From positions 1 to 64,000 of the forward strand of contig NZ_JABASU010000002.1 of NCBI RefSeq assembly GCF_016107555.1: a stretch of DNA of 64,000 bases. The letters run 5' to 3'. The notes below the pieces were generated by a model. It saw nothing but the letters and a program-made list of their open reading frames with translations. It did no database searches and had not been told where the DNA came from. Of the stretch, positions 23,493-39,134 are shown piece by piece (position 1 is the first letter of the stretch; each line of letters begins with the position of its first letter). Source of the DNA: Psychrobacter celer (GTDB lineage: Bacteria; Pseudomonadota; Gammaproteobacteria; Pseudomonadales; Moraxellaceae). Position numbers and translations under genes: made by a program.

Positions 23493-24569
23493 CTAGAGGC
23501 GAGCGCGATACTCGCTATTGCTATCATCTATCGTGCCAAACACCTCAGCGCGGTTGACGATCTCTGTCGCCCAAGCACGATGCGTGGCAGGCTCGAGCAT
23601 GGTGTTGTTGTACTTAAATACCGCTTTGGCCTCGCTATGCAGTATCGCTTGTGCTTCATCTAAGGTGCTAAGAGAGACGCAGTACGCCTGCTGCACTAAC
23701 GCAATTTGGCTTGGGTGTATGACGGTCTTGCCGACTAAACCCAAGCTGACATCGCGGGTCAGCTCTTGCATAAATAGCGTTGGCTGATCTAGATACTCAA
23801 AGACGGGCGCTGTCAGATAAAACCCGTGCGGTACAAAGCAGCCGAGTAGCTGATAGGCCAGTGTGCCAATAGGGGTATCATAGACGATGCTGTTTTTTGG
23901 GCGACGTAAGCGCAGCGCAGCAAATAAGTCATTGCCGCCGATACGTAGGGCAAAGACTGGCTGATTAAAGGCTTCTTTAAAGCCGATGGCCAGCTCTTGA
24001 TTATGCCGCGGATCAAAGAGCGCTGCAGTCTCGAGCGTCGGCATCAACAGCTGGGTACTGCTAATATTTTGACAAGCCAGCCGCCAGTTGGACAAGCTAT
24101 ACATATCCACTTTTGGCAATACAAAACCATCGATAAGGTCGATATGAGCGTAGTCTGCGAGCTGTTGTAGCATCGCTGGGCTGCGCGGACGCACAAAGAC
24201 CAAGGGGCGTGTCGGCAGCTGGGCGGGCGGCTGGGATTCTAGCGACGCTCGTTTGCAGGGCTGATTGATTGTATCGACATGCTCGGCCCACGTGTTTAGT
24301 AAGTCTTGTAAGCGCTCGAGTGCCAGCTCGACATCGCTATGACCGACAGCGTCCTCTAGACAAATGATAATACTATTAATCGTCGGTAGCTTGTCGCGTT
24401 TGATGACATGCCAGATGTCTTGGCGCGTGGCCGGCATATAAAGGCTAGCACCGAGCTGATAAGGGTGATGCGTATGTGGTCTCACCATGGCATGGCGCTC
24501 GGTGATGAGGTGGGCATAAGATTGAGTATGCCCGTATCGGTTTGATTGGTTTTTGGGTATATCGGACAT
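23493..24569 (-). CDS. HpcH/HpaI aldolase / CitE-like lyase of Ter module
   Basis: 358 residues of CitE/HpcH fold (TIM barrel). 'INSIIICLEDAVGHSDVELA' near residue 60 has the Glu-Asp motif, 'LIDGFVLPKVD' near 140 and 'GLVGKTVIHPSQIALVQQAY' near 290 are the conserved metal and CoA-lyase blocks. In Ter gene neighbourhoods a CitE-like carbon-carbon lyase accompanies two phosphoribosyltransferase-type proteins, a HAD enzyme and an ATP-grasp enzyme, all of which occur here. It is the last gene of the minus-strand block beginning at 28245; a 372-base gap with a MITE and a long hairpin separates it from the StiP-type gene. Reaction unknown. Confidence 0.82.
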   Translation of the reverse strand: MSDIPKNQSNRYGHTQSYAHLITERHAMVRPHTHHPYQLGASLYMPATRQDIWHVIKRDKLPTINSIIICLEDAVGHSDVELALERLQDLLNTWAEHVDTINQPCKRASLESQPPAQLPTRPLVFVRPRSPAMLQQLADYAHIDLIDGFVLPKVDMYSLSNWRLACQNISSTQLLMPTLETAALFDPRHNQELAIGFKEAFNQPVFALRIGGNDLFAALRLRRPKNSIVYDTPIGTLAYQLLGCFVPHGFYLTAPVFEYLDQPTLFMQELTRDVSLGLVGKTVIHPSQIALVQQAYCVSLSTLDEAQAILHSEAKAVFKYNNTMLEPATHRAWATEIVNRAEVFGTIDDSNSEYRARL

Positions 24570-24645
24570 AATGGGTATCGTAGTTGTGATGAATGAAAGG
24601 GTAAAACGTTATCATCGTCTCACTCAAAAAAAACAATACAGGATG

Positions 24646-24704
24646 GCTGGTCTATGTTTTTACTTCTCACACGATAGGCTGAGTAAGCAAAAACGTAGAC
24701 CAGC
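24646..24704. promoter_or_regulatory. Long intercistronic hairpin before the CitE-like gene
   Basis: Arms 24646-24665 (GCTGGTCTATGTTTTTACTT) and 24685-24704 pair at 18 of 20 positions around a 19-base loop. On the minus strand a run of eight T begins about 12 bases later, so it may act as a terminator, attenuator or RNA-stability element. Confidence 0.6.
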
Positions 24705-24746
24705 GTGGCGATGTTATTAGGATAGCGCTTTTTTAAACTGGCTTTA

Positions 24747-24915
24747 GCGTGTGTCTGCAACGGAACTATGAGGTTAAAAATGAGATATATTTTTGTCCAG
24801 CTAGGGTCAGCTCAAAGTTCATATCAGTATATTAGCTAAGAATGAGACACCGTTTGGCATAAATATAGCCATTTTCAACCCGTAAATCACGAAAGTTGTC
24901 ATTGAAGACACGCCC
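24747..24915. mobile_element. MITE-like element A, copy 3 (diverged, 169 bp)
   Basis: Ends TA-GCGTGTGTCT and AAGACACGCCC-TA match the intact copies; the interior 'GAGACACCGTTTGGC..AAATATAGCCATTTT' is recognisable but much mutated. Same orientation as copy 1. Confidence 0.65.
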
Positions 24916-24941
24916 TAGTATAAGCGGTATGACTATGTATA

Positions 24942-26129
24942 TTAACAGTCGTCTTTGCTGCGTTGTTTGATAAGAGTGATGGCGTGATAGGGTAGTATTT
25001 TATCACCTAATACACTGATATGGATATCTCGCTCGTGACATAAATGTCGTAATAGTAGCGTATCGGGATGATCGGCGCAGGCCAGCAAGATACGCTCAGG
25101 GTCTCGGCGTAGTATCGCTCTGGTAGCCTCGGCAATGGTTGGCTTGATGCGATTGCGGTTGGTGATGTGATAATCGGCGGCAATGCTATCGATTAAACCT
25201 GCGGTCCGATAGCGTGGCTGCTGATACATCGGCAAGCACTGCATGGGGCGCTGGAGGGTTTGCCGCGCACGATCGATTTGCTCGATGAAGGCAAGGCTGT
25301 GATCGATTGCACGCAGCTCCTCATAAAACACGCTGCGGTGTAGCCCTGATTGCGGCTCGGTATACAAACTGCGAGAAATCAGCCCCGACACCGTACTGTT
25401 TAATAGTCCCGATGGAATCAGCCAATCCTCACTGCTTGCTGCCAGCCACGCCACCCCTGCAGGGTCGGCCAACGTCAGTAGGGGGACGACGCCTGCGCCT
25501 TGATGAAAAATATTGGCAAAGTGCGGCTGATTGGGTTGATTAAAAGGCCGCAAGCTGCGCTCAAGCTCTCGATAAATCGCGCCTTTGCCCGTCCAGCCAT
25601 CGACAAAGACAATCGGGCTGCTTGGATGCGCGTCCAGTATCATCTGCAGCGCGACAGGGTCAAGCCCGCGATCTCGGATGATACTGATACCATAATGTAC
25701 ACTAGGCAAAGCGTAGCTGCTATCGCTATCTGACCTTTCATCATCTGATAGGGCGCGCTGCAATAACACACCAATGGGCAAACCTGCCCGCACTAAGCTG
25801 ACCAGTACCAGCGGCTGCTCATTATCCACTGTCTGCCCAAAGATATCGTGTAATGTATAAGCCAAATTAGCAATATCGCTAGCCATGCGCGCTTTACCTT
25901 GCTCAAGCGCTTGCAGATATAGCTGCTCATGCTTAGCAGTTGGTGCTTGCTCTAAGGTGAGCATATCGGAGTAGTGCCGCTGCCCACTTTGGATCAGCGC
26001 TTCTTTTTGGCTGACAGGGATATCGGCGACTGCTTGTTTGTCGACGATGTCGAGTAGTACGGTGACATCAGAGGGTAGGTAGCTGCCTGAGCCGTATTGT
26101 GTGAATGTCTGCATGTTGGGATAGGTCAT
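24942..26129 (-). CDS. StiP-type phosphoribosyltransferase-like protein with PELOTA-like tail
   Basis: 395 residues. Matches the family annotated 'cysteine protease StiP' (PRTase_1), which later domain analysis reads as a phosphoribosyltransferase-like fold rather than a protease. Conserved blocks are 'YGSGSYLPSDVTVLL' at the start, 'LVSLVRAGLPIGVLLQRAL' near 108, 'HYGISIIRDRGLD' near 145 and 'FVDGWTGKGAIYRELE' near 175, the last resembling a PRPP loop. The C-terminal 60 residues ('ERILLACADHPDTLLLRHLC') look like the PELOTA-type RNA-binding domain of Ter clusters. ATG at 26129, 53 bases after the HAD gene. Probable role: step in making the Ter nucleoside-like metabolite, inferred from family context. 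Confidence 0.8.
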   Translation of the reverse strand: MTYPNMQTFTQYGSGSYLPSDVTVLLDIVDKQAVADIPVSQKEALIQSGQRHYSDMLTLEQAPTAKHEQLYLQALEQGKARMASDIANLAYTLHDIFGQTVDNEQPLVLVSLVRAGLPIGVLLQRALSDDERSDSDSSYALPSVHYGISIIRDRGLDPVALQMILDAHPSSPIVFVDGWTGKGAIYRELERSLRPFNQPNQPHFANIFHQGAGVVPLLTLADPAGVAWLAASSEDWLIPSGLLNSTVSGLISRSLYTEPQSGLHRSVFYEELRAIDHSLAFIEQIDRARQTLQRPMQCLPMYQQPRYRTAGLIDSIAADYHITNRNRIKPTIAEATRAILRRDPERILLACADHPDTLLLRHLCHERDIHISVLGDKILPYHAITLIKQRSKDDC

Positions 26130-26182
26130 AAAGATAGTTACTTATATAAGCGATTGTCATTATTCACGATATCTACAGGCCG

Positions 26183-27001
26183 TTAGCGGCTAATATTGTC
26201 ATGCATCTGACCGTGATTTGGCATGCCATACCAGTCCAGCAGCTGCAAAAATGGCAAATCGGCCAAGCTGTCCCCAAAGCCAAAGCTAGGGCGCTGAGCA
26301 TCTAAGTGCTGTGCTAATAAAAACTGCACGGCATGACGCTTATGCACCGCATGCGGTAGGATGGCCAAATTATTGGCATTGACATGCACATAGAAGTCTT
26401 GATCAAAGTGTCGTATCAATTTAGGCAACTGCTCAGCGAGCTGTATCAGAGCTTGATGATTTTTTTGCGCGTGTTTGATAGCAAGATAGATGGTCAGTTC
26501 TTTGTTTTCAGTGCCGTTATTAAAATGATCTTTATGCGTGGTAAACTTTAAATGGCTGTTGTCGCTGCTGCTGTGCTGAGTAAATAACTGGCTTAGCTGC
26601 CCCAGCTTCTCTTGCAAGGGCGCAAGCTTGCTATACATGCGCTGCTGCCACTGCGTCTCAAGCTTGCCATCTTGAGTTAAAACAATCGCCCCGTGAGTCA
26701 ATACCTGCCAGCTATCAAAGGGCAGTCTCACCCGTTTGATCTCTTTGCGATCGCGGGCAGTGACCACTATCAATTCAGTACTCGCTAATAACCAATTAAC
26801 AAAGCTTGCTTGTCGCTGACTCATAAAGCTCAGCGGCTCGCCTTGTTTGTTGACGGAGGCGCAGATCAAGTCTTCAGGCGCAGCGGTAGGCAGATGCCAT
26901 GCATCAATTTTGCGCTGAGTTTGAAACAGCGTATCGTCTAGATCCATAAGGGCGTAGGGTTTGACGATATGAGCGCTGGGCTGAAAAAACATCGTGGTCA
27001 T
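26183..27001 (-). CDS. HAD-superfamily hydrolase of Ter module
   Basis: 272 residues. HAD motif I is 'LMDLDDTLFQTQ' near residue 18-29 (Asp nucleophile), motif II 'ELIVVTARD' near 78, and motif IV 'FGFGDSLADLPFLQLLD' near 238-254 (acidic pair), so a phosphatase or phosphotransferase of the Cof-like kind. The ATG overlaps the stop of the upstream PRTase-TRSP gene in an ATGA arrangement, which points to coupled translation and a joint pathway. Within Ter modules this HAD enzyme is predicted to remove a phosphate from the sugar or nucleotide intermediate; no direct evidence here. Confidence 0.85.
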   Translation of the reverse strand: MTTMFFQPSAHIVKPYALMDLDDTLFQTQRKIDAWHLPTAAPEDLICASVNKQGEPLSFMSQRQASFVNWLLASTELIVVTARDRKEIKRVRLPFDSWQVLTHGAIVLTQDGKLETQWQQRMYSKLAPLQEKLGQLSQLFTQHSSSDNSHLKFTTHKDHFNNGTENKELTIYLAIKHAQKNHQALIQLAEQLPKLIRHFDQDFYVHVNANNLAILPHAVHKRHAVQFLLAQHLDAQRPSFGFGDSLADLPFLQLLDWYGMPNHGQMHDNISR

Positions 27002-28245
27002 ATTTTACCACCTACTATCAATACATTGTCCAAATCTTGCCACATCTCATCGACGCTATCAGCCGCAGTTTCCACACACAGTACAATCAAGTCCCACGCC
27101 TTTGGCTCGACGTTATATACAAAGTTGGTCATGCCAAGACCATAATGATCACGAAAGCTTAGCATCGTACCGATCGCGCCGCCAAGAGCAATCGGCGAGC
27201 GTGTCAGCGCGCCAAATTTGACGGTAGCCTGCGTTTGGCTTTCTAGCCACTCTGCCAACAAAAACGGCAACCAAACAAACTCATTACTGCCTAATACCAA
27301 TATGCGCGCAGGCCACTGAGGCAGGCTAGGCGATACCTGCTCGCGAAAGCGTGTAAATACCGTTTGGAAGTGCGCCAAATAACGATCAAACCCCTCTGTA
27401 CTATCGAGCGTTGGGAAGCGCCCCCAATTGCCGGTGTCACCTAACGGCTGGCTACCAGCTTCGGTGGTATCGACGGCTGGCATCGTAATCGGCTCAGGAT
27501 TGGGGGCATCTGTCCAAGTCCACGCGCCAGACAATAAGTGATGACGATAAAAGTCAATATCAGGCAGGCGGCTAGATATAGCGTCCGCAGTATCCGTGGT
27601 GTCTTGCTGTTGGTTGAGTGACCAATCAACCAGCGTGGTTAGATGTACTTGCTCTAACTGACTAAGTCCAGCTTGACGTAGGGCAGTGACGACATTGACG
27701 CAGGTGTTGCCTGTCGAGGCCTCGTCATCGACCATAATAAGTGTCTTACTCGCAAGTAATTGCGCTTGCGTTGCTTGCTCTGCACTTTGGTAAATCAGGT
27801 GCTGGCTGGCGTGACTGTGATCTTCGCTAAAAGTCGTCAGCAGGCAGGCGCTGTCGTTGGGTGCGGCGTCAGCGCTATGCTGGGCGTGACGGGTGGAGTT
27901 GAGCAGTAGCGCGTTGGGGTAGCGGGTTTGCAGCGCTTGATGCACGCCTGCTGATAGACCCACCGCAGTCTCCGCCATACCAATCACCAAAATAGGCTCA
28001 GGCAAATGGCTGGGAATCAACGCGGCCAAATCAGTAAAAGCGGTACGCATGGTGCTGGGAGCGACAGGAATATGGCGACCTAAGACTTTTGAGACAAACA
28101 AAAATGCGCGCTTAGGATTGATGCGCTGAGCAAAGCCCAATAAATCATTTAATTGATACGCTGCATGGCCGTTATGGCTATTGGTCTGATACGTGAGATC
28201 AAGGATACCGCGAGGTAGCTCGATGGTGGTACGCTGCTTTGGCAT
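26998..28245 (-). CDS. PRTase_2 phosphoribosyltransferase with C-terminal TRSP domain
   Basis: 415 residues. The PRPP-binding signature is 'TLIMVDDEASTGNT' around residue 172-185, the form of type I phosphoribosyltransferases. The C-terminal half contains 'FGALTRSPIALGGAIG' near 355, the Thr-Arg-Ser-Pro motif naming the TRSP domain, and ends in 'DNVLIVGGKI'. ATG at 28245 with AAGGA six bases upstream; first gene of the minus-strand block PRTase-TRSP/HAD/StiP/CitE. Such proteins are restricted largely to Ter stress clusters and are predicted to attach a phosphoribosyl unit to a base-like acceptor. Confidence 0.85.
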   Translation of the reverse strand: MPKQRTTIELPRGILDLTYQTNSHNGHAAYQLNDLLGFAQRINPKRAFLFVSKVLGRHIPVAPSTMRTAFTDLAALIPSHLPEPILVIGMAETAVGLSAGVHQALQTRYPNALLLNSTRHAQHSADAAPNDSACLLTTFSEDHSHASQHLIYQSAEQATQAQLLASKTLIMVDDEASTGNTCVNVVTALRQAGLSQLEQVHLTTLVDWSLNQQQDTTDTADAISSRLPDIDFYRHHLLSGAWTWTDAPNPEPITMPAVDTTEAGSQPLGDTGNWGRFPTLDSTEGFDRYLAHFQTVFTRFREQVSPSLPQWPARILVLGSNEFVWLPFLLAEWLESQTQATVKFGALTRSPIALGGAIGTMLSFRDHYGLGMTNFVYNVEPKAWDLIVLCVETAADSVDEMWQDLDNVLIVGGKI

Positions 28246-29000
28246 TCATTTTCCTTTTAGGATTATTCAAATATACTTAGGTTTATATTTGATTTTTATA
28301 CTTGGTTTTTATATTGAAATTTTTACACTCAGGCCTTTTCAACTATGGTGCCCTTGATGGTGATATGAGCCTTGAGCCGCGTTTTTACAATCAATAAATA
28401 TAGCCAATCCGGCATCATATTGGCACACTTTATGTCATGTGCGACTGGCATTCATTTTGCGCGGCATCTGTCGGTGTTGGCACAGCACGCAAGAGAAACA
28501 AATACCAGTAGGACGGTACTGTTTTAAAATAGGTTAACCATAGCCGCATGATAACTGAAATCATATGATAAAGGTGGTAATGCCTGACCTGCGCCACCTA
28601 TCCAATGATAGCAAATCCTCACCAAAGCCATGGTATTCAAGCCTTATGGCGATTTTTAAACAATGAACCCACCCTCAACGTGAGCGTTTAGCCACCTATC
28701 GGATAATCTTGCCATTTATCGGTCAATGCCGGCTATCTGCTTGCGAGACAATATGTATTCGTTGATAATGCAGCCAAAATTACTTCTGTAAAGTAACCAG
28801 ATGGTAACGAGGTTTTGAGCAGCTAATATATAAAAAACCATGTGTTCGCTGGCAATACTGCTATTGCTGATTGATACGTTAAAAAAAGGTGCAAAACAGT
28901 TGTACGTCTGGCGATATTTTGGTGACCTAATCAGCGCCGCAGTTTACCAAAATAACTCAGCACGAAAAAGTTTGGCTGTATTGTTAAAAAGGAGTGAGCT
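28246..29000. other. 755-bp intergenic region between divergent Ter block and V4R gene
   Basis: No gene seen. About 28441-28545 resembles the 150-bp repeat family ('TTTTGCGCGGCATCTG', 'CACAGCACGC', 'ATACCAGTAGGACGGTACTG'). The remainder is AT-rich and should hold the two divergent promoters; no operator recognised. Confidence 0.5.
28441..28545. repeat. Diverged relative of the 150-bp repeat family
   Basis: Shares 'GCGGCATCTGTCGG' and 'GGCACAGCACGC' with 3878-3905 and 'CCAGTAGGACGGTACTG' with 37100-37116. Confidence 0.5.
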
Positions 29001-29738
29001 TTGAGATTTTCTTGTGCACTAGAAACCGCCTCGGAACGCATCCGTTTGGTCAATGTGATTTCACCATTGATCAAAGCTGGCTATCAGCTTGTCTCACAAA
29101 GACAAGAGCCGTCAAGCAATGGCGGCAACATCATACAGGTGGTGGCCAAAAGCCAAGGCGCGAAGACGCAAGCGGATGTGATCGCTGACTTGTCTGCCAT
29201 CGATGGGTGTACGCTGCTTAAGCTGGAAATTGAGGAAGACGAGGCGGCGGCGCCGGTTGCGGCTCCGATACCATCGGCACCTACTGCACCCGCAATAGAT
29301 GAAAAAAGCGTACTGGCCGCTATCGGTGCGCGGTATCCAGACATAGCCGAGGTGGTCACTCAGTACAAAGCCAGTCTGCCGGCCGAAAGACGCGTTAGTG
29401 CCATGCATGAGCTAGGCCGCAAGGTTGGCGGCGGTATCTATCAGCGTGACTATGCGCTCGGTAGTCCGCTCAAGATGTCTGCTGCCATCAGCCGCGAGTT
29501 GGTGCCTGCACTCAAAGTGTTTTCTAAAATCAAGGCCCGTGATCATGTCATTACTTTGGTGAAATGTCCGTTTTGTCAGTCATCCGAGCATTCGCATTCA
29601 GGCTGTCATTTTGTGGTGGGGTATATAGAAGGCTTTTTGGCAAGCAATCCCGCGGTGGGCAGAGTGCGCGCAGAAGAAACCAGCTGCGGTGCGGGCAGTA
29701 CCCATGTTTGCGAGTTTACTATAGTCGATACACTCTAA
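29001..29738 (+). CDS. V4R (4-vinyl-reductase-like) domain protein with N-terminal ACT-like domain
   Basis: 245 residues. TTG start at 29001 with a strong AAGGAG six bases upstream. Residues 1-80 look like a small alpha/beta regulatory fold; a Glu/Ala/Pro-rich linker (about 78-100) leads to a C-terminal V4R domain with 'CPFCQSSEHSHSGCHFVVGYIEGFL' (given in part: CPFC, HSGC, GYIEGFL) and 'AEETSCGAGSTHVCEF', which holds the conserved Cys/His positions of V4R small-molecule or metal sensors. The last five residues and the stop are encoded by the end of a 150-bp repeat. It sits between the Ter biosynthetic block and the MHYT gene, suggesting a sensor role, inferred. Confidence 0.75.
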   Translation: MRFSCALETASERIRLVNVISPLIKAGYQLVSQRQEPSSNGGNIIQVVAKSQGAKTQADVIADLSAIDGCTLLKLEIEEDEAAAPVAAPIPSAPTAPAIDEKSVLAAIGARYPDIAEVVTQYKASLPAERRVSAMHELGRKVGGGIYQRDYALGSPLKMSAAISRELVPALKVFSKIKARDHVITLVKCPFCQSSEHSHSGCHFVVGYIEGFLASNPAVGRVRAEETSCGAGSTHVCEFTIVDTL

Positions 29739-29869
29739 AAATGTCATAGCGCTACTGGGATGCTGTTTTTAAATGTAGGTTGCGCAGCCTCTGGGAACGC
29801 AGCACGCAAGTAAAATTTATACCAGTAGCGCGTTTAAATCTATAACAGTTTTACATTCAGCTAACTATA
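29720..29869. repeat. 150-bp repeat B, copy 2
   Basis: Inverted relative to copies 1 and 3 and nearly identical in the core. Left end TATAGTCGATACACTCTAAA overlaps the V4R gene's final codons; right end is ..TTCAGCTAACTATA. Confidence 0.85.
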
Positions 29870-30008
29870 TCTGGTAAAAATCACTCATGGGTCAAATAAC
29901 ACCTATGACAAAAAAGTAATGAGCGTCTCAAGTACGGCGACTCGTACAAATCTTAAGTGGCTTAAATGGCTTGGGCTCACTGTTTATAAAAATGTAAAGG
30001 GCGAAAAA

Positions 30009-30755
30009 ATGATAGAAGTTGAATATAACCTGATGTTGGTGCTTGTCTCGTATGCCATCGCTGTGTTTGGCTCGTATGTTGGTCTAAACTTGGCCATCCG
30101 AGTTCCGTCTGCTAAGCCTGGCAATGACTTGTACTTTTGGGTAGCGCTGTCTTCGCTCGCCATCGGTGGTGCGATTTGGTCGATGCACTATATCGGTATG
30201 ATGGCCGTGGATATGAAGATGCCAGTGACCTATGATCTGGGCTTGACGATTGTGTCGATGCTGCTGGCGGTACTGTTTGTGGCGGTTGGTGTGGTCATCG
30301 TTGGCCGCGGTGTACCAAGTGTGGCAAAACTGCTCGGCGGCGGGATATTGACAGGTCTTGGCGTGGCCGCCATGCACTATACCGGCATGGCATCCATGCA
30401 GATGGACGCAACCATGTCCTATAACACCCCGCTTTTGCTCACATCGATTGCGATTGCCATTGCCGCATCGATCGCTGCGCTATGGTTGGCCTTTAATCTG
30501 CGTGGCAATCTACAACGTTTTGGCAGTGCCTTTATCATGGGTATTGCGGTGTGCGGGATGCATTACACAGGTATGGCCGCGATGGAGATGCAAATGGTTC
30601 ATACGGGTGAGATGATGTCTATGGCGCATAGCAGCTCAGACGCTTTTATGTCATCGATGCTTATCTTTATCGGCTCGGCCATCGTCCTAAGCTTGCTGTG
30701 GGTGATTGCTTCTAAAAATGCGCCGCAAAAGGCAGCACTGGTATTTGGTGAGTGA
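30009..30755 (+). CDS. Stand-alone MHYT-domain membrane protein
   Basis: About 248 residues. ATG at 30009 has AAGGG seven bases upstream; the earlier in-frame ATG at 29919 lacks a ribosome site and would add 30 unrelated residues. Seven membrane helices are predicted with three MHYxGM repeats (MHYIGMM, MHYTGMA, MHYTGMA) at helix ends, plus many extra Met residues next to them ('MAVDMKMP', 'MASMQMDATM', 'MAAMEMQM'). MHYT domains are proposed copper- or redox/gas-sensing modules, usually fused to GGDEF-EAL or kinase outputs; this one has no output domain, so it must signal through a partner or serve another role. Confidence 0.88.
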   Translation: MIEVEYNLMLVLVSYAIAVFGSYVGLNLAIRVPSAKPGNDLYFWVALSSLAIGGAIWSMHYIGMMAVDMKMPVTYDLGLTIVSMLLAVLFVAVGVVIVGRGVPSVAKLLGGGILTGLGVAAMHYTGMASMQMDATMSYNTPLLLTSIAIAIAASIAALWLAFNLRGNLQRFGSAFIMGIAVCGMHYTGMAAMEMQMVHTGEMMSMAHSSSDAFMSSMLIFIGSAIVLSLLWVIASKNAPQKAALVFGE

Positions 30756-30954: not shown

Positions 30955-32079
30955 TTATTTAATTTTGACACTGGTCATCAAAGAGCGCACCTGACAGGGA
31001 GTGATTTGCTCAATGACGTCAGCCAGTTTGGGCTTGTCGCTCAGGCCCAGCCAATAGCCAAAGCCAATTTGAGTCAAGTCGACAGCGCTGTGCGCCGTAT
31101 AGCCGATACCACCTGAGGGGCGGCTGTTGATCTCAAGGACACGGTGCTGGCCGTCGCTATCGGCCTTGGTCTGGACGCTAACGATACCATCGCAGCCAAA
31201 GGCACTAATCAATGGAATCACCACTGCCATCACCTCCTGATCGTAGCCGACATGCTGGATTTTTCCTGTTTTATGGCGTGTAACGGCCGCCAGCACCTCA
31301 CCGTATTCACACACCACGTCGATAGAGTATTCTTGGCCTGATAGATAGGGCATCAGTAGCATAGGGATAGGACGCTCATGCACCATCTGGCTATGGCTAT
31401 ATGCCTGCAAAAACTGCTTGGTGCTGATTTTTTTCTCTTCGGTAAAGTACAGATGCTCAAAGCTGTCATAAAGGTCAGCTGCTGCCTTTCCGGTATCAAG
31501 CCGCCAAAACCCTTGGGCAAAAATACCTGTGACCGGCTTGACACACAGCGGCTGATCGCAGTATTTATCCAGCAATGCTTCAAGCTCGGCTAGGGTATCA
31601 AACCGCCACGCCTCGGCCACAGGAATGTCATGCGCCTGACAGTGCTGCATAAAGGCAAACTTATCATCGATGGACGCTAGGGCGTCGACACTGGTGGCCC
31701 CTGTCAGTAGGCGGATGCCAGCCGCCGCAAACGCGTCGCGCTTTGCTTCGTAGTCTATGCTGTTGCGTCCAGTCAAAAGGACTTTGACCTGCTGCTGCTG
31801 GGCTTGTTCGAGCACAAACTGCCAGCGCGGTACATCAAGAGGGGGCATTTGCTTAGGAACATCACTTGCGGACGCTAAAGGCTCACGATAGACCGTATCG
31901 GCCAGCGAAAAGATTTCAGGTCTATCATGGCGATGTGAGGCAATGATATGCAGTGGCGCGCTCGTTTTGGTTTTTAGAGCTTGCAGGCTAGCGAGCATAT
32001 CGCGCTGGCTGGATTGACCTTCAGCCAACCAGACGGCTAGAGGCGCTGAGTGATGAGTAGCGTTTGCAGGGTTGTTCAT
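30955..32079 (-). CDS. ATP-grasp ligase of Ter module
   Basis: 374 residues. An N-terminal Rossmann-like part (about 1-130) precedes the ATP-grasp fold: 'DDKFAFMQHCQAHDIPV' near 150, 'LCVKPVTGIFAQGFWRL' near 190 (nucleotide-binding Lys), 'MPYLSGQEYSIDVV' near 265 and the Mg2+ motif 'RVLEINSRPSGGIGYT' near 340. ATP-grasp enzymes join a carboxylate to an amine or thiol via acyl-phosphate. Ter gene clusters regularly encode one beside the two PRTase proteins, HAD and CitE-like enzymes, consistent with a peptide- or amino-acid-decorated nucleoside product. Divergent from the TerA gene. ATG at 32079. Confidence 0.85.
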   Translation of the reverse strand: MNNPANATHHSAPLAVWLAEGQSSQRDMLASLQALKTKTSAPLHIIASHRHDRPEIFSLADTVYREPLASASDVPKQMPPLDVPRWQFVLEQAQQQQVKVLLTGRNSIDYEAKRDAFAAAGIRLLTGATSVDALASIDDKFAFMQHCQAHDIPVAEAWRFDTLAELEALLDKYCDQPLCVKPVTGIFAQGFWRLDTGKAAADLYDSFEHLYFTEEKKISTKQFLQAYSHSQMVHERPIPMLLMPYLSGQEYSIDVVCEYGEVLAAVTRHKTGKIQHVGYDQEVMAVVIPLISAFGCDGIVSVQTKADSDGQHRVLEINSRPSGGIGYTAHSAVDLTQIGFGYWLGLSDKPKLADVIEQITPCQVRSLMTSVKIK

Positions 32080-32496
32080 GGGTCTCTCAGATGCTAAGGG
32101 TTAGGGGTAGTATCGTGATCCGATCGTCACTGTTTCTCAAGCACTTTATTATCAGAGCTTTATTTATCAGAGCTTTATGGCATAGGGATAGTGAGCGCAC
32201 TTTAATACCAGTAGCACTGGGCTTATTTTCAACTGACTGCTACTATAGAGCAATGTGTAGGCCATGTCTTCGATTCACGCGATAGCTATCTGAGTGGGCT
32301 AAAAATGGCCAAATCTTGGCAAGCATCGTTAAACGTCGTCAAATAGCAGGTCAATACCCAATATTAACGGCGCTATTTTCCTTGTTTGACCGCAATTTAT
32401 CTCATTTTTATCACTATTTTTGAAATGCAGACACAGCCTAGTATGATCCATTAAGCAATAAAAAATAAGCATTATTACTTATAAGAAGGACAGAAT
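32080..32496. other. Divergent promoter region ATP-grasp / TerA with repeats
   Basis: No gene seen. It contains a 14-bp direct duplication TATCAGAGCTTTAT (about 32150-32177), a word 'GATAGTGAGC..TTAATACCAGTAG' also found at 37081-37106, and a diverged MITE A at 32260-32438. Confidence 0.55.
32260..32438. mobile_element. MITE-like element A, copy 4 (diverged, about 179 bp)
   Basis: Ends TA-GGCCATGTCTTC and GCAGACACAGCC-TA; interior 'GTGGGCTAAAAATGGCCAAAT' and 'TTTCCTTGTTTGACCGCAAT' match copy 2 in the same orientation. Confidence 0.65.
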
Positions 32497-33744
32497 ATGA
32501 GCCAAAACCAACCGCAACAATTGGTGGCGGGTGCCAACGCGCCATTACCCAATGACCATATCAGTATTCGTATCATAAGCCAAAACGCGGTAGATTGCGC
32601 CGCTTATCGCTTAACTAGCGATGGTAAGGTACGCGGTGATGGCGACATGATATTTTATGGTCAGACCCGCAGCGACGACGGCAATGTCAGCTTTCGCGGC
32701 CATGACAGCGATGGGTTTTTTGATATCAATTTGCCCGCGCAGCCTGCCAATATCGACAAGATTGCTTTGGCATTCTCTAGCGAGCAAACGCTGGCGCAAA
32801 TCGGTGATGTGGATATTCAGGTATTGCAGGGCAGCCAAGTATTGTTGACCTGCCAGCTAAATGGTACTGGCCGCTCCGAAAAAGCCATTATCTTGGCCGA
32901 ATGCTACCGCCGGCAGGGCAGTTGGAAGTTTCGTTTTATCGCGCAGGGGTTTAATGGTGGTCTCAAGCCATTATCTGAGCATTTCGGGGTCGAGATTGCT
33001 GATGAAGCGCCAGCCCCAAGCCAAGCAGCACCTCAAGCACAGACGATCAATACACAGAAACCCAATCGACCTGCTCAGGCCACCCCGCCGCCGATACCCG
33101 CCAGTCCTACGGTAAATTTAAACAAAATCACCTTAACCAAAAATCAGTCCAGCATCAATCTAAAAAAACGCGACAATTTTGGCAAAATCGCGGTCAATCT
33201 CAACTGGAACCAGCGGCCAAATGCCGATCAAAAAACGCCCAAAAAAGGGCTATTAGGCGATTTATTTAAGCAGCACAAATCTGGCGGCATCGATTTGGAT
33301 GTCGGTGCGATGATTCATCTAAAAAATGGCGAAAAAACCCTGATTCAAGCACTGGGCAATCGCTTTGGTAGCTTGCAGTCGGCGCCTTATGTGTGCTTGC
33401 GGGCTGATGATAGAACCGGGCAGGTGAGTGACGGTGAATGGCTCGATATCAATGGTCAACAGTGGTCGCAGATTGAGGAGGTGTTTATTTTTGCCTTTAT
33501 TTATGAGGGTGTGCCAAACTGGGCCCAAACTGATGGGGTGGTGACCATTCACGTGCCAGAGCAGCCACCGATTGAGACTCGTCTGACAGAAGGCACCGAC
33601 AACCTGCCTATGTGTGCCATCGCGCGGCTGGTCAATCAGCAAGGCAGCATCAATGTCGAGCGTATCAACCAATACTTTAAAGGTCACCAAGAAATGGATA
33701 AGGCCTTTCATTGGGGCTTTAGCTGGAAGCGTGGACGTAAGTAA
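32497..33744 (+). CDS. terA: TerA-like protein with two TerD-type domains
   Basis: 415 residues, compared with about 385 for plasmid TerA. First TerD-like domain about 10-170 ('DGDMIFYGQTRSDDGNV', 'AIILAECYRRQGSWKFRFIAQGFNGGL'); Pro/Gln-rich linker about 172-225; second domain about 225-415 ('LNWNQ', 'GGIDLDVGAMI', 'VFIFAFIYEGVPNW'). The full Ca2+-binding [13 protein letters not shown] motif of TerD is absent, so calcium binding may be weak or lost. TerA/TerD proteins are cytoplasmic stress proteins thought to assemble at the membrane with TerC. ATG at 32497 with AAGGAC five bases upstream. Convergent with the TerZ-like gene. Confidence 0.8.
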   Translation: MSQNQPQQLVAGANAPLPNDHISIRIISQNAVDCAAYRLTSDGKVRGDGDMIFYGQTRSDDGNVSFRGHDSDGFFDINLPAQPANIDKIALAFSSEQTLAQIGDVDIQVLQGSQVLLTCQLNGTGRSEKAIILAECYRRQGSWKFRFIAQGFNGGLKPLSEHFGVEIADEAPAPSQAAPQAQTINTQKPNRPAQATPPPIPASPTVNLNKITLTKNQSSINLKKRDNFGKIAVNLNWNQRPNADQKTPKKGLLGDLFKQHKSGGIDLDVGAMIHLKNGEKTLIQALGNRFGSLQSAPYVCLRADDRTGQVSDGEWLDINGQQWSQIEEVFIFAFIYEGVPNWAQTDGVVTIHVPEQPPIETRLTEGTDNLPMCAIARLVNQQGSINVERINQYFKGHQEMDKAFHWGFSWKRGRK

Positions 33745-33783: not shown

Positions 33784-33822
33784 AATCAGCCCGTCTATGA
33801 TAAATAGACGGGCTGATTTTTT
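33784..33822. terminator. Bidirectional terminator between terA and terZ
   Basis: AATCAGCCCGTCTA (33784-33797) pairs perfectly with TAGACGGGCTGATT (33805-33818), with T and A runs on either side. Confidence 0.9.
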
Positions 33823-33861: not shown

Positions 33862-34470
33862 TTAAGCATGCGGGGTAATCGCAGGCATCAAGTCATGAAA
33901 GGTACGACCAGAGGCAGTCTCTCCGATGGCGTGCATCTTCCACTCGCCGTTATGACGATAGACCTTGGCCATAATCATCGCAGTATGGCCGCCTTGTGCG
34001 GATAAATTATAGCGCGCCACCTCAGCGTTGTTGCTGGCGTTGACGATACGGCAAAACGCATTTTCGACGGTCTCAAACGTCTGACCGGTAAAGCTATTGA
34101 CCGTAAATACCAGTGACGTCACATTGCTTGGGACGCGCGCGAGATCGACGTTGATGACTTCATCGTCGCCGTCACCATCGCCAGTACGATTGTCGCCTGT
34201 ATGGACGATGCTGCCGTCTTTTGATTTTAGCTGGCTAAACCAAATCGCATCGACGGCTTGTTTGCTGCTATCGAACATGATGCAAGAGGCATCAAGATCG
34301 ATAGAGTCGCCGCCGCTACCACCGCCAAACAATTTACCCAAAAACCCGCCTTTTTGTGCTTGAGGCCCTTGAGCCACATCCCAGCCTAGGCCCAGTTTGA
34401 CTTGTGTCAGCTCGCCGCCAGCTTCTTTGCTTAAAGAGATTTTTTGCCCTTTTTGTAGATTAACTGCCAT
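33862..34470 (-). CDS. terZ: TerZ-like TerD-family protein
   Basis: 202 residues. Compared with TerD it carries a Gly-rich insertion 'GGFLGKLFGGGSGGDS' near residue 40-55 before 'IDLDASCIMFD', the arrangement of TerZ. The calcium-binding motif GDNRTGDGDGDDE is intact near residue 92-104, followed by 'VNSFTGQTFETVENAFCRIV'. TerZ and TerD proteins bind Ca2+ and take part in tellurite, phage and colicin tolerance. ATG at 34470 with AAGGA seven bases upstream. It follows the AIM24-family gene by about 46 bases and is probably cotranscribed with it. Confidence 0.9.
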   Translation of the reverse strand: MAVNLQKGQKISLSKEAGGELTQVKLGLGWDVAQGPQAQKGGFLGKLFGGGSGGDSIDLDASCIMFDSSKQAVDAIWFSQLKSKDGSIVHTGDNRTGDGDGDDEVINVDLARVPSNVTSLVFTVNSFTGQTFETVENAFCRIVNASNNAEVARYNLSAQGGHTAMIMAKVYRHNGEWKMHAIGETASGRTFHDLMPAITPHA

Positions 34471-34516: not shown

Positions 34517-35269
34517 CTATAAGATATTGTCTAAAAAGCCACCGCCGCCGCCGCGACCGCCTGAGCTGGTGCCTAGGATGCTTTGTAGCCAGCCTTGGTA
34601 GCTGTCACGGTTGCGTGAGCAGATGATGACTTTGCCGCTACCTGAGAAGTTTAGCACCATACCTTCGCCGCTGGTGACGGAGTTGATGATATTGCTCATG
34701 ATGCCTTTTTTCTTACTGGTCGACACCGACAGTTTATAGTCTAAATTTGAGTCCCAGCAGACCACGTGACCATTATCAATGATGACGTCTTTGTCTGGTG
34801 TCACCTCAATCTCAAACAGCGAGCCAAAACCTGATACCACCACTTGACCTTGGCCTTGGGTCTGCATCACCATAAAGCCGCCGGTATCGCCAAATACTGC
34901 GCCGCCAAGGTTGCGCTGAATATTGGCTCTGATATCGACGCCTGTTTGCGCGGCGACAAAAGCTCCATCACTGAGTGTGTATTGCTGCTTGCCGACCTCG
35001 ATGATTTGCATGTCGCCATCTAGCGTTGGTGCAAGCAGGCAGTCTCCTTCGCCGCCCGTCGCTTCTATCTGCTGCTGAAATAGGGATTCGTCATTGGCAA
35101 AGCGGCGCATCAACGACTGCATCAGCCCGCCTTGTAGCTTGCCTTTTAACTCAAGATTGGACTCCATCATGACCATGGCGTTGGCTTCACAATAAATAGA
35201 GTCACCCTTTTTTAGATTGCAGTGCAAAAAAGGCTCAATGGTACCGATTAAGCTAAATGTCGCGGCCAT
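34517..35269 (-). CDS. AIM24-family (TIGR00266-like) protein
   Basis: 250 residues from the ATG at 35269 (AAGGA ten bases upstream; an in-frame TTG at 35278 sits on that site). The beta-helical AIM24 fold shows as 'KKGDSIYCEANAMVMMESNLEL', 'GEGDCLLAPTLDGDMQII' and 'GQVVVSGFGSLFEIEVTPDKDVIIDNGHVVCWD' in part, with a final Gly-rich tail 'GGRGGGGGFLDNIL'. AIM24-type proteins recur in bacterial Ter clusters and are suspected membrane-associated scaffolds; the yeast namesake is mitochondrial. Lies between the TerE-like and TerZ-like genes on the same strand. Confidence 0.82.
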   Translation of the reverse strand: MAATFSLIGTIEPFLHCNLKKGDSIYCEANAMVMMESNLELKGKLQGGLMQSLMRRFANDESLFQQQIEATGGEGDCLLAPTLDGDMQIIEVGKQQYTLSDGAFVAAQTGVDIRANIQRNLGGAVFGDTGGFMVMQTQGQGQVVVSGFGSLFEIEVTPDKDVIIDNGHVVCWDSNLDYKLSVSTSKKKGIMSNIINSVTSGEGMVLNFSGSGKVIICSRNRDSYQGWLQSILGTSSGGRGGGGGFLDNIL

Positions 35270-35354
35270 AGGGGGCAAATCCTTCTTTTAATCTTTTTGA
35301 TAGAGGCGATGTCACAGGGGCTGATTTATAAAGCTTTATGCTGCGTAATAAACA

Positions 35355-35397: not shown

Positions 35398-35452
35398 TTG
35401 CTGCCGCAGTCCTATATAGATGGTGACTGCGACGATGGAGGGTTTAACCTTT

Positions 35453-35516: not shown

Positions 35517-35520
35517 GGCG

Positions 35521-36096
35521 TTATACATTTACGCCATAAGAAGCCGCTAATGGGCCAAGACCGCCATTAAAGCCTTGTCCAACCGCGCGGAATTTCCAAT
35601 CGCCGTTGTGACGATATAGCTCACCGAAGATCATAGCCGTCTCGGTGCTACCGTCTTCTGATAGGTCGTAGCGAGCGATTTCGGCTTGTCCATTATCATT
35701 GACTACGCGGATATAAGCGTCGCCCACTTGGCCGAAGTTTTGGTTACGAGCTTGGCCTTCATAGATGATGGCACAGATGGCGACTTTGCTGACATCCGCT
35801 GGGACATTGGCTAGGTTAATTTTGATTTTTTCATCATCGCCGTCGCCTTCGCCAGTACGGTTGTCACCGGTGTGCTCGACCGCGCCGTTGTCTGATTTTA
35901 GGTTGTTAAAGAAGATAAAGTCTTGGTCGTTACGGACTTTACCCACTTCATTCAACAAAAAAGCGATGGCGTCTAAGTCAAAATCTTGACCGTCGGTCGC
36001 CCGCGGATCCCAGCCAAGACCGACTGTGATGTTGGTCAAGCCTGGCGCTTCTTTTGATAAGTTTACGTTGCCGCCTTTTGTTAAGCTAATAGCCAT
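35521..36096 (-). CDS. terE: TerE-like TerD-family protein
   Basis: 191 residues, the TerE length. '[34 protein letters not shown]' in its key parts (GLGWD, DFDLDA) opens the domain; the Ca2+-site motif [13 protein letters not shown] is intact near 80-92; '[19 protein letters not shown]' and 'VGQGFNGGL' close it. The C-terminal 'ASYGVNV' is closer to TerE than TerD. ATG at 36096 with AGGA eight bases upstream. A hairpin and a 16-bp tandem array separate it from the AIM24 gene. Predicted role: cytoplasmic Ca2+-dependent part of the Ter membrane complex. TerD/TerE distinction is by eye. Confidence 0.9.
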
Positions 36097-36409
36097 ATAA
36101 ATATCCTATGAATTAATAATTAAGAGTTTTTGGTGTTATAAGTTAAAAATAGGGCAGTCATGACTATCTGAGCACAAAAGATCAATAAGTCGACCTGTAC
36201 GCCATATCCTGCCTATCGTTACGTCTAACTATACTAAGCGATTGCTGAGTAAGCAAGGCGTATTTTGTGTGACTATACAACATATATCTTTCTGTCTACA
36301 AAGAAGTAAGATTATGACCATATCCATCGTCGTTTCGCTATTTATCTGATTATCATTTATAATAGCGCGCTCAGGTTCCCTCTACCCTGCTGTAAAAAAA
36401 GGCCGATTT
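36097..36409. other. Divergent promoter region TerE / yhhQ
   Basis: 313 bases, no gene. TATAAT at 36358-36363 could be the -10 of yhhQ, 45 bases before its start; no good -35. Confidence 0.45.
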
Positions 36410-37069
36410 ATGAGTATTAGTACTGTTTTGACAACCCCGATCGAACCCATTCGCTATCGCCGCGCGCTATTTTGGCTGGTCAGCCTGCATATCTTTATCA
36501 TCGCCAGTAGTAACTACTTAGTGCAGATACCTGTCGAGCTGTTTGGCTTTATCACCACATGGGGCGCTGTTACTTTTCCCTTTATATTCTTGATTACTGA
36601 CTTGACCGTGCGTATCTTTGGTCAGCATTTAGCCAGACGTATTATCTTTTTTGCGATGATGCCTGCGCTGATGATTTCTTATTATTTTTCTGTGGTGTTT
36701 TCAAATGGTCAGTTTATTGGTCATGAGCATCTGCTGGATTTTAATTTATTTGTCTTTCGCATTGTGTTGGCCAGTTTTAGTGCTTATGTGGTCGGACAGC
36801 TGCTGGATATCCAAGTATTCAATAAACTGCGCCGTTTGAGTATTTGGTGGGTTGCACCGCTCGCATCGACGTTTATTGGCAATTTGGTCGATAGCTTTTG
36901 CTTTTTTGCCATCGCTTTTTATAAAAGCCCAGATCCTTTTATGGCGTCGCACTGGATTGAGATTGGTACGATGGACTATTTGTTTAAGATAGTGATGGGC
37001 GTGTGTGTTTTTTTACCGCTCTATGGCGTGGTGTTGGCAAAACTTCAGAAGATGCTAGCAGGGAAGTAA
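36410..37069 (+). CDS. yhhQ: YhhQ-family 7-deazaguanine (queuosine precursor) transporter
   Basis: 219 residues with six membrane helices. 'ISTVLTTPIEPIRYRRALFWLVSLH', 'WGAVTFPFIFLITDLTVRIFGQHLAR' (key words TFPFIFLITDLTVRIFG) and 'FIGNLVDSFCFFAIAFY' are YhhQ/QPT-family blocks. E. coli YhhQ imports preQ0/preQ1. ATG at 36410 with AAAGG upstream. It is on the plus strand between minus-strand TerE-like and TerC-like genes. The genome also encodes QueE and QueC (both here), so import is a salvage complement or serves another purpose in the Ter island. Confidence 0.88.
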   Translation: MSISTVLTTPIEPIRYRRALFWLVSLHIFIIASSNYLVQIPVELFGFITTWGAVTFPFIFLITDLTVRIFGQHLARRIIFFAMMPALMISYYFSVVFSNGQFIGHEHLLDFNLFVFRIVLASFSAYVVGQLLDIQVFNKLRRLSIWWVAPLASTFIGNLVDSFCFFAIAFYKSPDPFMASHWIEIGTMDYLFKIVMGVCVFLPLYGVVLAKLQKMLAGK

Positions 37070-37080
37070 ACACCAGCAAA

Positions 37081-37140
37081 GATAGTGAGCACCTTAATGC
37101 CAGTAGGACGGTACTGATTTTAAAATAGATTAACGATATC
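37081..37140. repeat. Diverged repeat fragment within the Ter island
   Basis: 'GATAGTGAGCACCTTAATGC' and 'CCAGTAGGACGGTACTG' match 32187-32213 and 28505-28521. Confidence 0.5.
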
Positions 37141-37181
37141 ACGCTAGATAATGAGCGAAGTCTGCAAGCACACATAAAAAA

Positions 37182-37213
37182 ACAGGTTATACCAATTGCT
37201 CGATATAACCTGT
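37182..37213 (-). terminator. Terminator for the TerC-like gene
   Basis: ACAGGTTATA pairs perfectly with TATAACCTGT; the minus-strand exit is seven T. Confidence 0.82.
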
Positions 37214-37261
37214 CATTCGATCACTTAATGAAATCGAATGCTGACACTAAACACAGCTGCG

Positions 37262-38323
37262 TTATTCAAGTGCTTGGCGTTTACGGTAGTTGAGTGATGC
37301 AACAAACGCCCAACCAATAAAGGCGATACCGATAAGACCAGTGATCAGCTCTGGCACGTGGAATTTCACCGACAATAGCATGATGATGGCCAAAGCACCG
37401 ATGGCATAATGCGCGCCGTGCTCTAGATAGACAAACTCATCGAGCGTGCCTTTATCGACTAAGAAAATAGTCATCGAACGGACAAACATCGCACCGATGG
37501 CAAGACCTAGCATGATGACAATCACGTCATTGGTAATGGCAAAGGCACCAATCACACCATCAAAACTAAACGACGCATCAAGGACTTCTAGGTATAAGAA
37601 ACCGATGATACCGCCTTTCATGATGGCGCTGGTGGCCTCAGATCCTGAGGTGCCGCCTTCGTGCTCTAGCTCTTCTTCCAAATCGCCCTCGAGCATACCT
37701 GATACCACTTGGACACCAAGATAGACAAGAATACCCCAGACGCCTGCGATTAATACCGCCGCTGATTGCTCAGCGCTGGCCCATGATACCGCAACCATCA
37801 AAACGATCAGCGCCACAAACACGCTCATGGCATCGACTTTGCCCAGCTTTACCAAACGGCTCTCTAACCATTCAAACCAATGCACTTCTTTATCATCAAA
37901 GATAAAGTTTAAGAACACCAGCAATAAGAAAATACCACCAAAGGCAGAAATCTCTGCATGGTGTGCCATGAGTCTGGCAGAGTATTCTTCTGGGTTATAC
38001 AACGCTAGATTGATCACTTCCATCATACCAAGGTCAGCAGTGACGGCAACGATGACGATTGGGAATACCAAACGCATACCAAATACGGCGATTAAAATAC
38101 CAACCGTTAAAAAGATTTTTTTCCAAAATTCGTCCCAGCCTTTGAGGACTGAAGCGTTGACCACCGCATTATCAAATGATAATGAAATCTCCATGACGGC
38201 CAAAATAGCAGTAATAGATAGGGTGGTTATCATACCGCCCATACCGCCGTGTGAATATCCCCACCATGCTGCGATTGCAAGGGCAATAATGGTAAAGATA
38301 AAGTCTAAATAAAAATGTCTCAT
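37262..38323 (-). CDS. DUF475/TerC-superfamily integral membrane protein
   Basis: 353 residues. ATG at 38323 has AGGA six bases upstream; a longer in-frame ORF to 38404 starts inside the terminator hairpin of the next gene and is rejected. About nine helices. 'MEISLSFDNAVVNASVLKG' near residue 40 and 'LDASFSFDGVIGAFAITND' near 235 are the two acidic 'SFDN/SFDG' motifs in opposed helices, the core of the TerC superfamily, predicted to handle metal ions (Mn2+ or Ca2+). This belongs to the DUF475 branch common in Ter clusters rather than classic plasmid TerC. Probably the membrane anchor for the TerD proteins. Confidence 0.88.
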   Translation of the reverse strand: MRHFYLDFIFTIIALAIAAWWGYSHGGMGGMITTLSITAILAVMEISLSFDNAVVNASVLKGWDEFWKKIFLTVGILIAVFGMRLVFPIVIVAVTADLGMMEVINLALYNPEEYSARLMAHHAEISAFGGIFLLLVFLNFIFDDKEVHWFEWLESRLVKLGKVDAMSVFVALIVLMVAVSWASAEQSAAVLIAGVWGILVYLGVQVVSGMLEGDLEEELEHEGGTSGSEATSAIMKGGIIGFLYLEVLDASFSFDGVIGAFAITNDVIVIMLGLAIGAMFVRSMTIFLVDKGTLDEFVYLEHGAHYAIGALAIIMLLSVKFHVPELITGLIGIAFIGWAFVASLNYRKRQALE

Positions 38324-38380
38324 GACACATCCTGTTTGGTTGCGTAAAGCTAAGGTCGGCCTATTATAGGCACAAACTGC

Positions 38381-38409
38381 AAAAAAGTGGTTATCGCTAA
38401 CCACTTTTT
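38381..38409 (-). terminator. Terminator for the TerD gene, upstream of the TerC-like gene
   Basis: AAAAAGTGGTTA pairs with TAACCACTTTTT around the loop TCGC. It indicates that terD and the TerC-like gene are separate transcription units. Confidence 0.85.
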
Positions 38410-38558
38410 ATGGATAATTTTAAACGAAACCTAAAGTATTGCTAGTCGTTTGCCGATGAAAAATTGTGACTGTTTTGCAACCAAAATTTGTGCGTATCAT
38501 CGTGTCTGACAGTGCGCTATGACTGTCTGATCGCTAGGATAGAGGGTTATACTCAAAA

Positions 38559-39134
38559 TTAGATATCGACGCCATATTGATGACACATCGCCTGCAAGCC
38601 GCCTGAGTAGCCCTGACCGACAGCGCGGAATTTCCATTCGCCATTATGGCGATATACCTCGCCAAATACCATGGCGGTCTCGACCGAGTAGTCTTCTGCT
38701 AAGTCAAAGCGAACGACTTCTGTACCTGTTTCTTCATTAACCACACGGATAAAGGCGTTGGCCACTTGACCAAAGTTTTGATTGCGCGCTGCCGCATCAT
38801 GAATGGTGACCGTCACCACGACTTTGTCGATATCGGCTGGGACTTGGGTGAGGTTTACTTTGATGACTTCATCATCGCCATCGCCTTCGCCTGTACGGTT
38901 GTCGCCAGTATGCTCCACTGCGCCATTGTCAGATCTGAGCTGATTGTAGAAAATAAAATCATGATCGCCGCGTACTTTGCCCGCGGTATTTAATAAAAAC
39001 ACACTGGCGTCCAGATCAAACTCAGCACCAGAGGTAGCGCGCTCGTCCCAGCCAAGACCGATGAGCAGTTTGGTTAGGTTTGGGTCGGTTTTGGTAAGCG
39101 ATAAGTTACCGCCTTTGTTCAGTGATAAAGCCAT
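38559..39134 (-). CDS. terD: TerD protein
   Basis: 191 residues; closest by eye to plasmid TerD ('DADFIFYNNL' type: here '[19 protein letters not shown]'). [16 protein letters not shown] and [13 protein letters not shown] (Ca2+ ligands) are all present, and '[21 protein letters not shown]' (in key parts [18 protein letters not shown]) closes the fold. ATG at 39134 with AAGGA seven bases upstream. It forms the right edge of the Ter island, and its product likely cooperates with the TerC-like membrane protein encoded just downstream but behind a terminator. Confidence 0.93.

Follow-up and report, generated by a model that had tools for sequence, protein, structure and literature searches.

A TerB-less Ter locus of Psychrobacter celer with two predicted phosphoribosyltransferase-fold proteins

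Group I Ter modules, described by Anantharaman, Iyer and Aravind in 2012, combine phosphoribosyltransferases (PRTases), HAD enzymes, TerD paralogues, TerC and AIM24, as summarised in later papers. In the model given in PMC7824862, a signal is synthesized by the PRTases and HAD enzymes, and TerB and TerD are its readers. A ter cluster from Psychrobacter that lacks terB, is split and contains AIM24 was reported in 2018 (PMC5822837): in P. glacincola BNF20 and its congeners terA lies opposite to terZ, E, C and D, no terB is present, a TIGR00266/AIM24 gene is located within the cluster, and the assignment is to group I; in BNF20 there is an extra terZ on another contig, and individual promoters were predicted. 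The locus described here has all of these shared features. It comes from Psychrobacter celer (assembly GCF_016107555.1) and lies in a stretch of 64,000 nucleotides, positions 1 to 64,000 of contig NZ_JABASU010000002.1, which is referred to as the window; compared loci are numbered with the prefix L. Unlike the group I modules of the 2012 description, this copy lacks TerB and is divided into at least seven transcription units.

The open reading frame (ORF) listing gives 14 genes between positions 23493 and 39134 (Table 1), rather than the fifteen counted in a preliminary description made from the sequence alone. The eleven genes which that description assigned to Ter-module families are all confirmed, since each of them scores above the Pfam cut-offs, and the PRTase, StiP, TRSP and every other module profile tested matched. 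Five are biosynthetic and encode a PRTase_2-TRSP protein, a HAD enzyme, StiP-PELOTA, a CitE-like lyase and an ATP-grasp ligase; the other six are four TerD-domain genes, AIM24 and TerC/DUF475. A V4R protein (below its Pfam cut-off), an MHYT protein and a queuosine-precursor transporter complete the locus. With its five cassette families, linked TerD paralogues, TerC and AIM24, the locus belongs to group I and is a further member of a described kind, the TerB-less form of which has already been reported in the genus. We propose, with a probability of roughly 55%, that it represents the group I Ter stress system in its Psychrobacter form, with a nucleoside-like signal that would be read by the TerD proteins.

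The PRTase, HAD, StiP and CitE genes form a single block on the minus strand, in which the PRTase gene shares its last 4 bases with the start of the HAD gene. Across the locus the strand switches six times, and at least seven transcription units are therefore needed; the split over both strands given in the preliminary description is correct, and its figure of about five units is too low. With six strand switches the locus is not a single polycistronic operon of the classical terZABCDE type. A chance grouping is excluded because four of the five TerD matches of the whole genome fall within this 16 kb and the arrangement recurs across the genus. The fifth, divergent TerD-domain gene is found elsewhere in the same genome (L126, contig C2, 3231-3878).

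The distribution of the locus was followed in 24 congeners and in the best 80 of 237 loci encoding a PRTase relative, a PRTase-selected sample that leans to near relatives and in which 74 loci are labelled Psychrobacter. PRTase_2 is present in 21 of the 24 congeners, and one of the three genomes without it is only 83% complete (the P. celer assembly, 3.02 Mb in 73 contigs, is 99.99% complete). The PRTase, HAD, StiP and CitE genes co-occur in 78 of the 80 loci, and in 70 together with ATP-grasp; the gene order is that of the window for most loci with genes in view, and alpha/beta hydrolase and enoyl-CoA hydratase flanks like those of the window are found in 61 loci each. No Ter-type match was obtained in 14 loci, several of them owing to an early end of the contig or of the fetched stretch. 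A mobile genomic island was considered and rejected, given the occurrence in 21 of 24 congeners, the kept flanks, a GC content of 0.44-0.51 as in the window, and a window without tRNA genes. Nearly core to the genus, the locus belongs to the chromosome and is no acquired island, and the term island in the preliminary description is misleading. Three loci (L062, L081 and L083) carry an insertion of about 7 kb between PRTase and HAD, with genes that by eye resemble an oligopeptide ATP-binding cassette transporter. A contig labelled Streptomyces cinereus (L093) encodes all five cassette genes, its PRTase being 64% identical to that of the window, and may stem from a contaminating Moraxellaceae bacterium.

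TerB is missing from this locus, as the preliminary description stated: no locus protein matches it in Pfam, and its profile finds nothing in any of the 24 congeners. A profile built from L118, L120, L121, L124, L128, L130 and two other sequences matched no ORF of at least 80 residues across the 80 loci at E 1. The only TerB match of the P. celer genome is an 805-residue TerB_N-TerB-TerB_C protein on contig C30, followed by genes for a BrxC/D-type ATPase and a DEAD helicase. Together these genes give matches to SngA (305 bits), SngB (615 bits) and SngC (860 bits) of the Shango defence system. The prospect raised in the preliminary description, a TerB elsewhere that is tied to the module, is thereby ruled out, the sole TerB domain being that of SngA in a SngABC system. 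The Shango set lies at 4942-11947 of L127 (contig C30), with an exonuclease-BRCT gene upstream. At least one TerB, in any context, occurs in all 13 genomes examined from other families of the order. Outside Moraxellaceae, seven Ter-linked islands of bacteria and plasmids were examined, and all have TerB, by Pfam in L118, L120, L121 (the last two from one genus) and L124, and by annotation in the plasmid loci L128, L130 and L135; these calls rest on Pfam or annotation, and the match of the profile above to the six loci that went into it is by construction.

Outside the genus, comparable arrangements occur on plasmids. Plasmids of Duffyella (L128) and Pseudomonas (L130 and L135) share the order ATP-grasp, PRTase, HAD, StiP and CitE together with TerD genes and TerC; they differ in that TerB is annotated in all three and TerC is annotated as TerC/Alx, and the two Pseudomonas plasmids have in addition a trypsin-like gene between ATP-grasp and PRTase. 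In all, 2555 plasmid records, mostly enterobacterial, encode relatives of the window PRTase, each less than 60% identical to it, and the surroundings were inspected for the three records named. The Acinetobacter jumbo phage ME3 (L129, 2822-8868), whose Ter system has been noted before (PMC7824862), carries PRTase, HAD and StiP-PELOTA adjoining TerD and TerC/DUF475. It differs in a TerF-like von Willebrand factor A (vWA) gene and in the single TerD gene seen; no TerB, CitE or ATP-grasp was found, absences that are not firm because Pfam covered 8 of its 20 genes.

PRTase_2 retains an intact phosphoribosyl pyrophosphate (PRPP) loop, DDEASTGNT, in which D173, D174, E175, T178, G179 and T181 are invariant in all 21 aligned sequences. 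Its model (mean predicted local distance difference test score, pLDDT, 86.7) is matched by adenine PRTases, with Z 13.2 over 174-176 residues, and by this predicted fold and its PRPP loop it is classed as a type I phosphoribosyltransferase. In the HAD enzyme D20 and D22 are invariant in 18 sequences. The profile of the CitE-like lyase matches solved enzymes of the citrate-lyase type including 3qll and 1sgj, and E72, D73, R127, R129 and other residues are invariant in 17 sequences. The ATP-grasp ligase resembles carbamoyl-phosphate synthase.

StiP requires a correction. Its current Pfam name describes it as a cysteine protease, a function we reject: in an alignment of 100 rows (85 different sequences) Cys does not exceed 20% in any column before residue 298, the one Cys with strong conservation (C364, in 92 rows) lies inside the PELOTA domain, and the AlphaFold2 model (mean pLDDT 88.6) has a PRTase fold. 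The structural matches of this model are hypoxanthine-guanine PRTases and PyrR, the best of them reaching Z 10.9 (152 residues, 3.1 Å), a value above, and not far above, the best Z of 7 to 8 that is typical without a clear match; all 50 matches listed belong to the PRTase family, with good coverage for model residues 64-364 only. Foldseek gave a modest result (best E 7e-4, query-normalised template modelling score 0.22), and a profile comparison with PRTase_2 aligned the two at the equivalent loop with a probability of 1.95%. The sequence-profile link being too weak, the structural comparison decided the assignment. The loop at the PRPP position reads VDGWTGKGA, with D177, G178, W179 and G183 invariant in all 100 rows, and L7Ae proteins match the C-terminus. 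We read StiP as a protein in which a predicted PRTase fold with a changed loop is linked to an L7Ae-like domain, and which may act as a transferase or a regulator; beside PRTase_2, this puts two PRTase-fold proteins in the module. The fold may have been seen earlier by others. The family PF11202 was, we presume, formerly named PRTase_1. In the record of phage ME3 the StiP gene is entered as phosphoribosyl transferase, and PMC7824862 speaks of PRTases of the Ter system in the plural.

From these families, predicted folds, intact catalytic motifs and the gene linkage, we infer substrates, a product, its reading by TerD and a physiological role in stress as follows. A precursor, base-like or acyl in nature, would be assembled or trimmed by the ATP-grasp ligase and the CitE-like lyase; PRTase_2 would couple it to ribose-5-phosphate from PRPP, and the HAD enzyme would strip the phosphate. 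StiP may catalyze a second transfer, or may sense PRPP or nucleotides and bind RNA via its L7Ae-like tail. The nucleoside-like product would be read by the TerD-domain proteins, which together with TerC and AIM24 would act at the membrane on metal flux and envelope state. The published signal-and-reader model fits the locus best, and a reader role for TerD is consistent with the fusions of TerD-like domains, to a protease or to NYN proteins, that relatives encode next to their synthesis genes (see below). Our literature search found no report identifying the product of the Ter cassette.

Several observations on the enzymes, the phenotype and the linkage of the two halves weigh against this proposal. 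StiP lacks the canonical PRPP loop of two acidic residues followed by TGxT, its second acidic residue being missing, and judging from this noncanonical sequence it may not be a transferase at all. Plasmid terZ-F alone gave tellurite resistance to Escherichia coli K-12 (PMC8115787), so the cassette is not needed for the tellurite phenotype. With an E of about 7e-79, the profile of the HAD enzyme matches the solved structures 6d3v/6cj0, whose deposited name is trehalose phosphatase; such a homologue would be as compatible with a sugar as with a nucleotide. On this basis the cassette could be a sugar-phosphate or compatible-solute pathway that makes a glycosyl protectant and not a nucleoside, the HAD enzyme serving as a phosphatase of the trehalose-6-phosphate type; weak matches of this enzyme to the S6PP and MPGP families point in the same direction. 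We give this pathway a low probability, given that no glycosyltransferase family is among the Pfam matches of the module, that two PRTase-fold proteins point to PRPP chemistry, and that the paper behind the trehalose phosphatase name of 6cj0/6d3v was not found in our literature search.

The linkage of the cassette to the Ter genes is not universal. Two Psychrobacter loci (L084 and L085) show no ATP-grasp or Ter gene in the roughly 8-10 kb before PRTase. Unlinked occurrence in related genomes, named in the preliminary description as an argument against the module, is found in three Moraxella genomes (L098, L099 and L102), which have the five-gene cassette and no Ter gene in the fetched DNA; two more, M. 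boevrei and M. macacae (L094 and L097), have PRTase without other cassette genes in the fetched DNA (HAD, StiP and CitE are not in view), and all five Moraxella genomes have TerD genes elsewhere. In a class-wide sample of 184 genomes, seven including P. celer have PRTase_2 over its cut-off, and 29 have weak matches only. Among the six others, Ter genes adjoin the cassette in three (L118, L120 and L121) and were not seen in the fetched stretch of the remaining three (L119, L122 and L123); L122, on a 10.3-kb contig, lacks a recognised HAD gene, and L123 a recognised HAD or CitE gene. ATP-grasp was recognised solely in L118, its profile, built mostly from Psychrobacter, being silent in the other five. 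In L119 no Ter genes were recognised in the vicinity, and the PRTase, HAD, StiP and CitE genes come after genes for a nonribosomal peptide synthetase-type protein, an MmeI-like methyltransferase and a glycosyltransferase.

Independence of the two sets, a biosynthetic cassette and a Ter set for metals or the envelope that only happen to adjoin, would account for the separation in Moraxella and for the whole or partial cassettes without Ter genes in view (L119, L122, L123, L084 and L085). We regard this as improbable, since the two sets are linked again in distant lineages, namely L118, L120, L121, L124 (a genome of the same order with a full cassette and Ter genes) and the plasmid loci L128, L130 and L135, as well as in the phage stretch L129. 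The two halves can part, yet they recur jointly from Psychrobacter to plasmids of Pseudomonas and Duffyella.

The region between ATP-grasp and PRTase behaves as a cargo slot. Across the 70 loci in which both flanking genes were found, the interval is between 41 and 7190 bp long. Its cargo is a TerD-trypsin fusion in 43 loci, V4R plus MHYT in 24 and a protein of NYN type in 11. Minor cargo includes a DnaJ-like gene in three loci, an Mrr-type gene in one and, judged by eye, a major facilitator superfamily transporter-like gene in ten. The catalytic His, Asp and Ser of the trypsin part are conserved in all 43 fusions (L049, whose trypsin gene is in pieces, is not counted), and the TerD part matches its profile only partially, over about 45 residues, with 25.2 and 24.6 bits in two proteins (cut-off 25.3) and 35.9 in a third. 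In L033, the sole NYN protein scanned with Pfam, the NYN, OST-HTH and TerD domains are all over their cut-offs, and six NYN-LOTUS proteins (L027, L033, L035, L036, L082 and L090) match the TerA gene of the window by tblastn. The TerD-trypsin fusion has the same slot position in another family (L118) and on the Pseudomonas plasmids L130 and L135, and it is therefore probably an old part of the module that was lost from this copy, whose slot holds V4R-MHYT only. By contrast, the slot of BNF20 (its contig is L065 in our sample) holds TerD-trypsin and a DnaJ-like gene. The 755 bp before the window PRTase contain no ORF over 55 residues wholly inside and no TerD-trypsin remnant by tblastn at 1e-3; a genome-wide search gave just two matches, of 28-32% identity in the protease part. 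A TerD-Tryp domain pair was listed for a Pseudomonas syringae protein in 2008 (PMC2605481), where its context is not given. Our literature search, which did not cover the 2012 paper of Anantharaman, Iyer and Aravind, found neither the slot nor the NYN fusion described.

This cargo raises the question of a conflict or anti-phage system, in which a nucleoside-like alarm signal would activate TerD-tethered slot effectors. The frequency of the TerD-trypsin and NYN-LOTUS proteins, the similarity of six of the latter to the TerA gene, the trypsin triad kept throughout, the DnaJ-like and Mrr-type genes, the identical placement of TerD-trypsin in another family and on two Pseudomonas plasmids, and a jumbo phage in which TerD, TerC/DUF475 and a TerF-like vWA gene accompany PRTase, HAD and StiP are in line with such a system. 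We nevertheless hold it to be unlikely: a scan of eight window proteins against the PADLOC models gave no match at E 0.01, this copy has neither type of effector, the TerD part of the fusion is only partial with two proteins below the cut-off, and a nearly core locus is unlike a typical defence island. Quite unlikely, too, is a composite circuit for immunity or stress based on a nucleoside signal, with TerD as the reader, StiP as a PyrR-like RNA-binding regulator and not a protease, and a slot of swappable effectors; its executor would be the TerD-trypsin protease, an NYN-LOTUS-TerD RNase or, replacing them here, the V4R-MHYT sensor pair.

The coordinates of the locus are collected in Table 1. 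The YhhQ transporter was considered as a module member through a queuosine link, which is unsupported; it is matched in 13 of the 80 loci, many of which stop short of its place, and it is probably a neighbour outside the module. Besides the hairpin in Table 1, terminator-like hairpins lie at 37181-37214, 39297-39326 and 23395-23416; they are pattern matches only, of which 31 were found against 16.5 expected in shuffles. Promoter patterns numbered 32 against a shuffled expectation of 26.0 (standard deviation 4.3), so promoters are not argued from them, and no Rfam match was obtained in 20000-43000 at gathering cut-offs. Two intergenic repeats were observed. A 183-bp repeat at 32258-32440 has at least 41 genome matches including itself, with copies at 14952-15125 and 7002-7175 and a part in the StiP-CitE gap. 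A 132-bp repeat between V4R and MHYT (29739-29870) has at least 42 genome matches including itself, up to 99% identical, with further copies at 45267-45398 and 16843-16958, and looks like a miniature inverted-repeat transposable element.

Table 1. Features of the Ter locus in the window, with the scores on which they were named.
Feature	Position	Strand	Evidence
CitE-like triosephosphate isomerase (TIM)-barrel C-C bond lyase (PF15617)	23493..24569	-	Pfam C-C_Bond_Lyase 327.6 bits
StiP (PF11202) with C-terminal PELOTA/L7Ae-like domain	24942..26129	-	StiP 273.4, PELOTA_1 78.2 bits
HAD-IIB-type phosphatase	26183..27001	-	Hydrolase_3 31.6 bits (cut-off 20.9)
PRTase_2 with TRSP, predicted type I phosphoribosyltransferase	26998..28245	-	PRTase_2 178, TRSP 63.8 bits
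Gap without long ORF; site of TerD-trypsin in many relatives	28246..29000		ORF listing, tblastn
V4R-domain protein, accessory cargo of the slot	29001..29738	+	23.5 bits, under Pfam cut-off 31
MHYT protein resembling a membrane sensor, accessory slot cargo	29919..30755	+	153.5 bits
ATP-grasp ligase of the Ter module (PF15632)	30955..32079	-	ATPgrasp_Ter 110.7 bits
TerA-like TerD-domain protein	32497..33744	+	98.8 bits
Terminator-like hairpin between convergent terA and terZ	33784..33818		15-bp stem then T run; pattern match only
TerZ-like TerD-domain protein	33862..34470	-	190.6 bits
AIM24/TIGR00266 protein	34517..35278	-	AIM24 185.4, TIGR00266 148.3 bits
TerE-like TerD-domain protein	35521..36096	-	288.3 bits
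YhhQ-type preQ0/preQ1 transporter	36410..37069	+	NF008406 322.4 bits (cut-off 252)
TerC/DUF475 membrane protein	37262..38404	-	DUF475 384.1, TerC 56.7 bits
TerD	38559..39134	-	293.9 bits

Compared with the published account of the Psychrobacter cluster, which does not contain the word PRTase (PMC5822837), the present analysis sets the Ter genes beside a biosynthetic cassette. The corrected annotation of StiP changes the chemistry to be expected from this cassette, with two PRTase folds and no protease, and the enzymes fused to TerD in the slot hint at the role of the TerD domain. The question of the cassette product reaches widely, given the number of plasmid records that carry PRTase relatives. 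If the Ter system works in Psychrobacter, TerB would be dispensable to it, and this copy offers a natural TerB-less system in an environmental genus.

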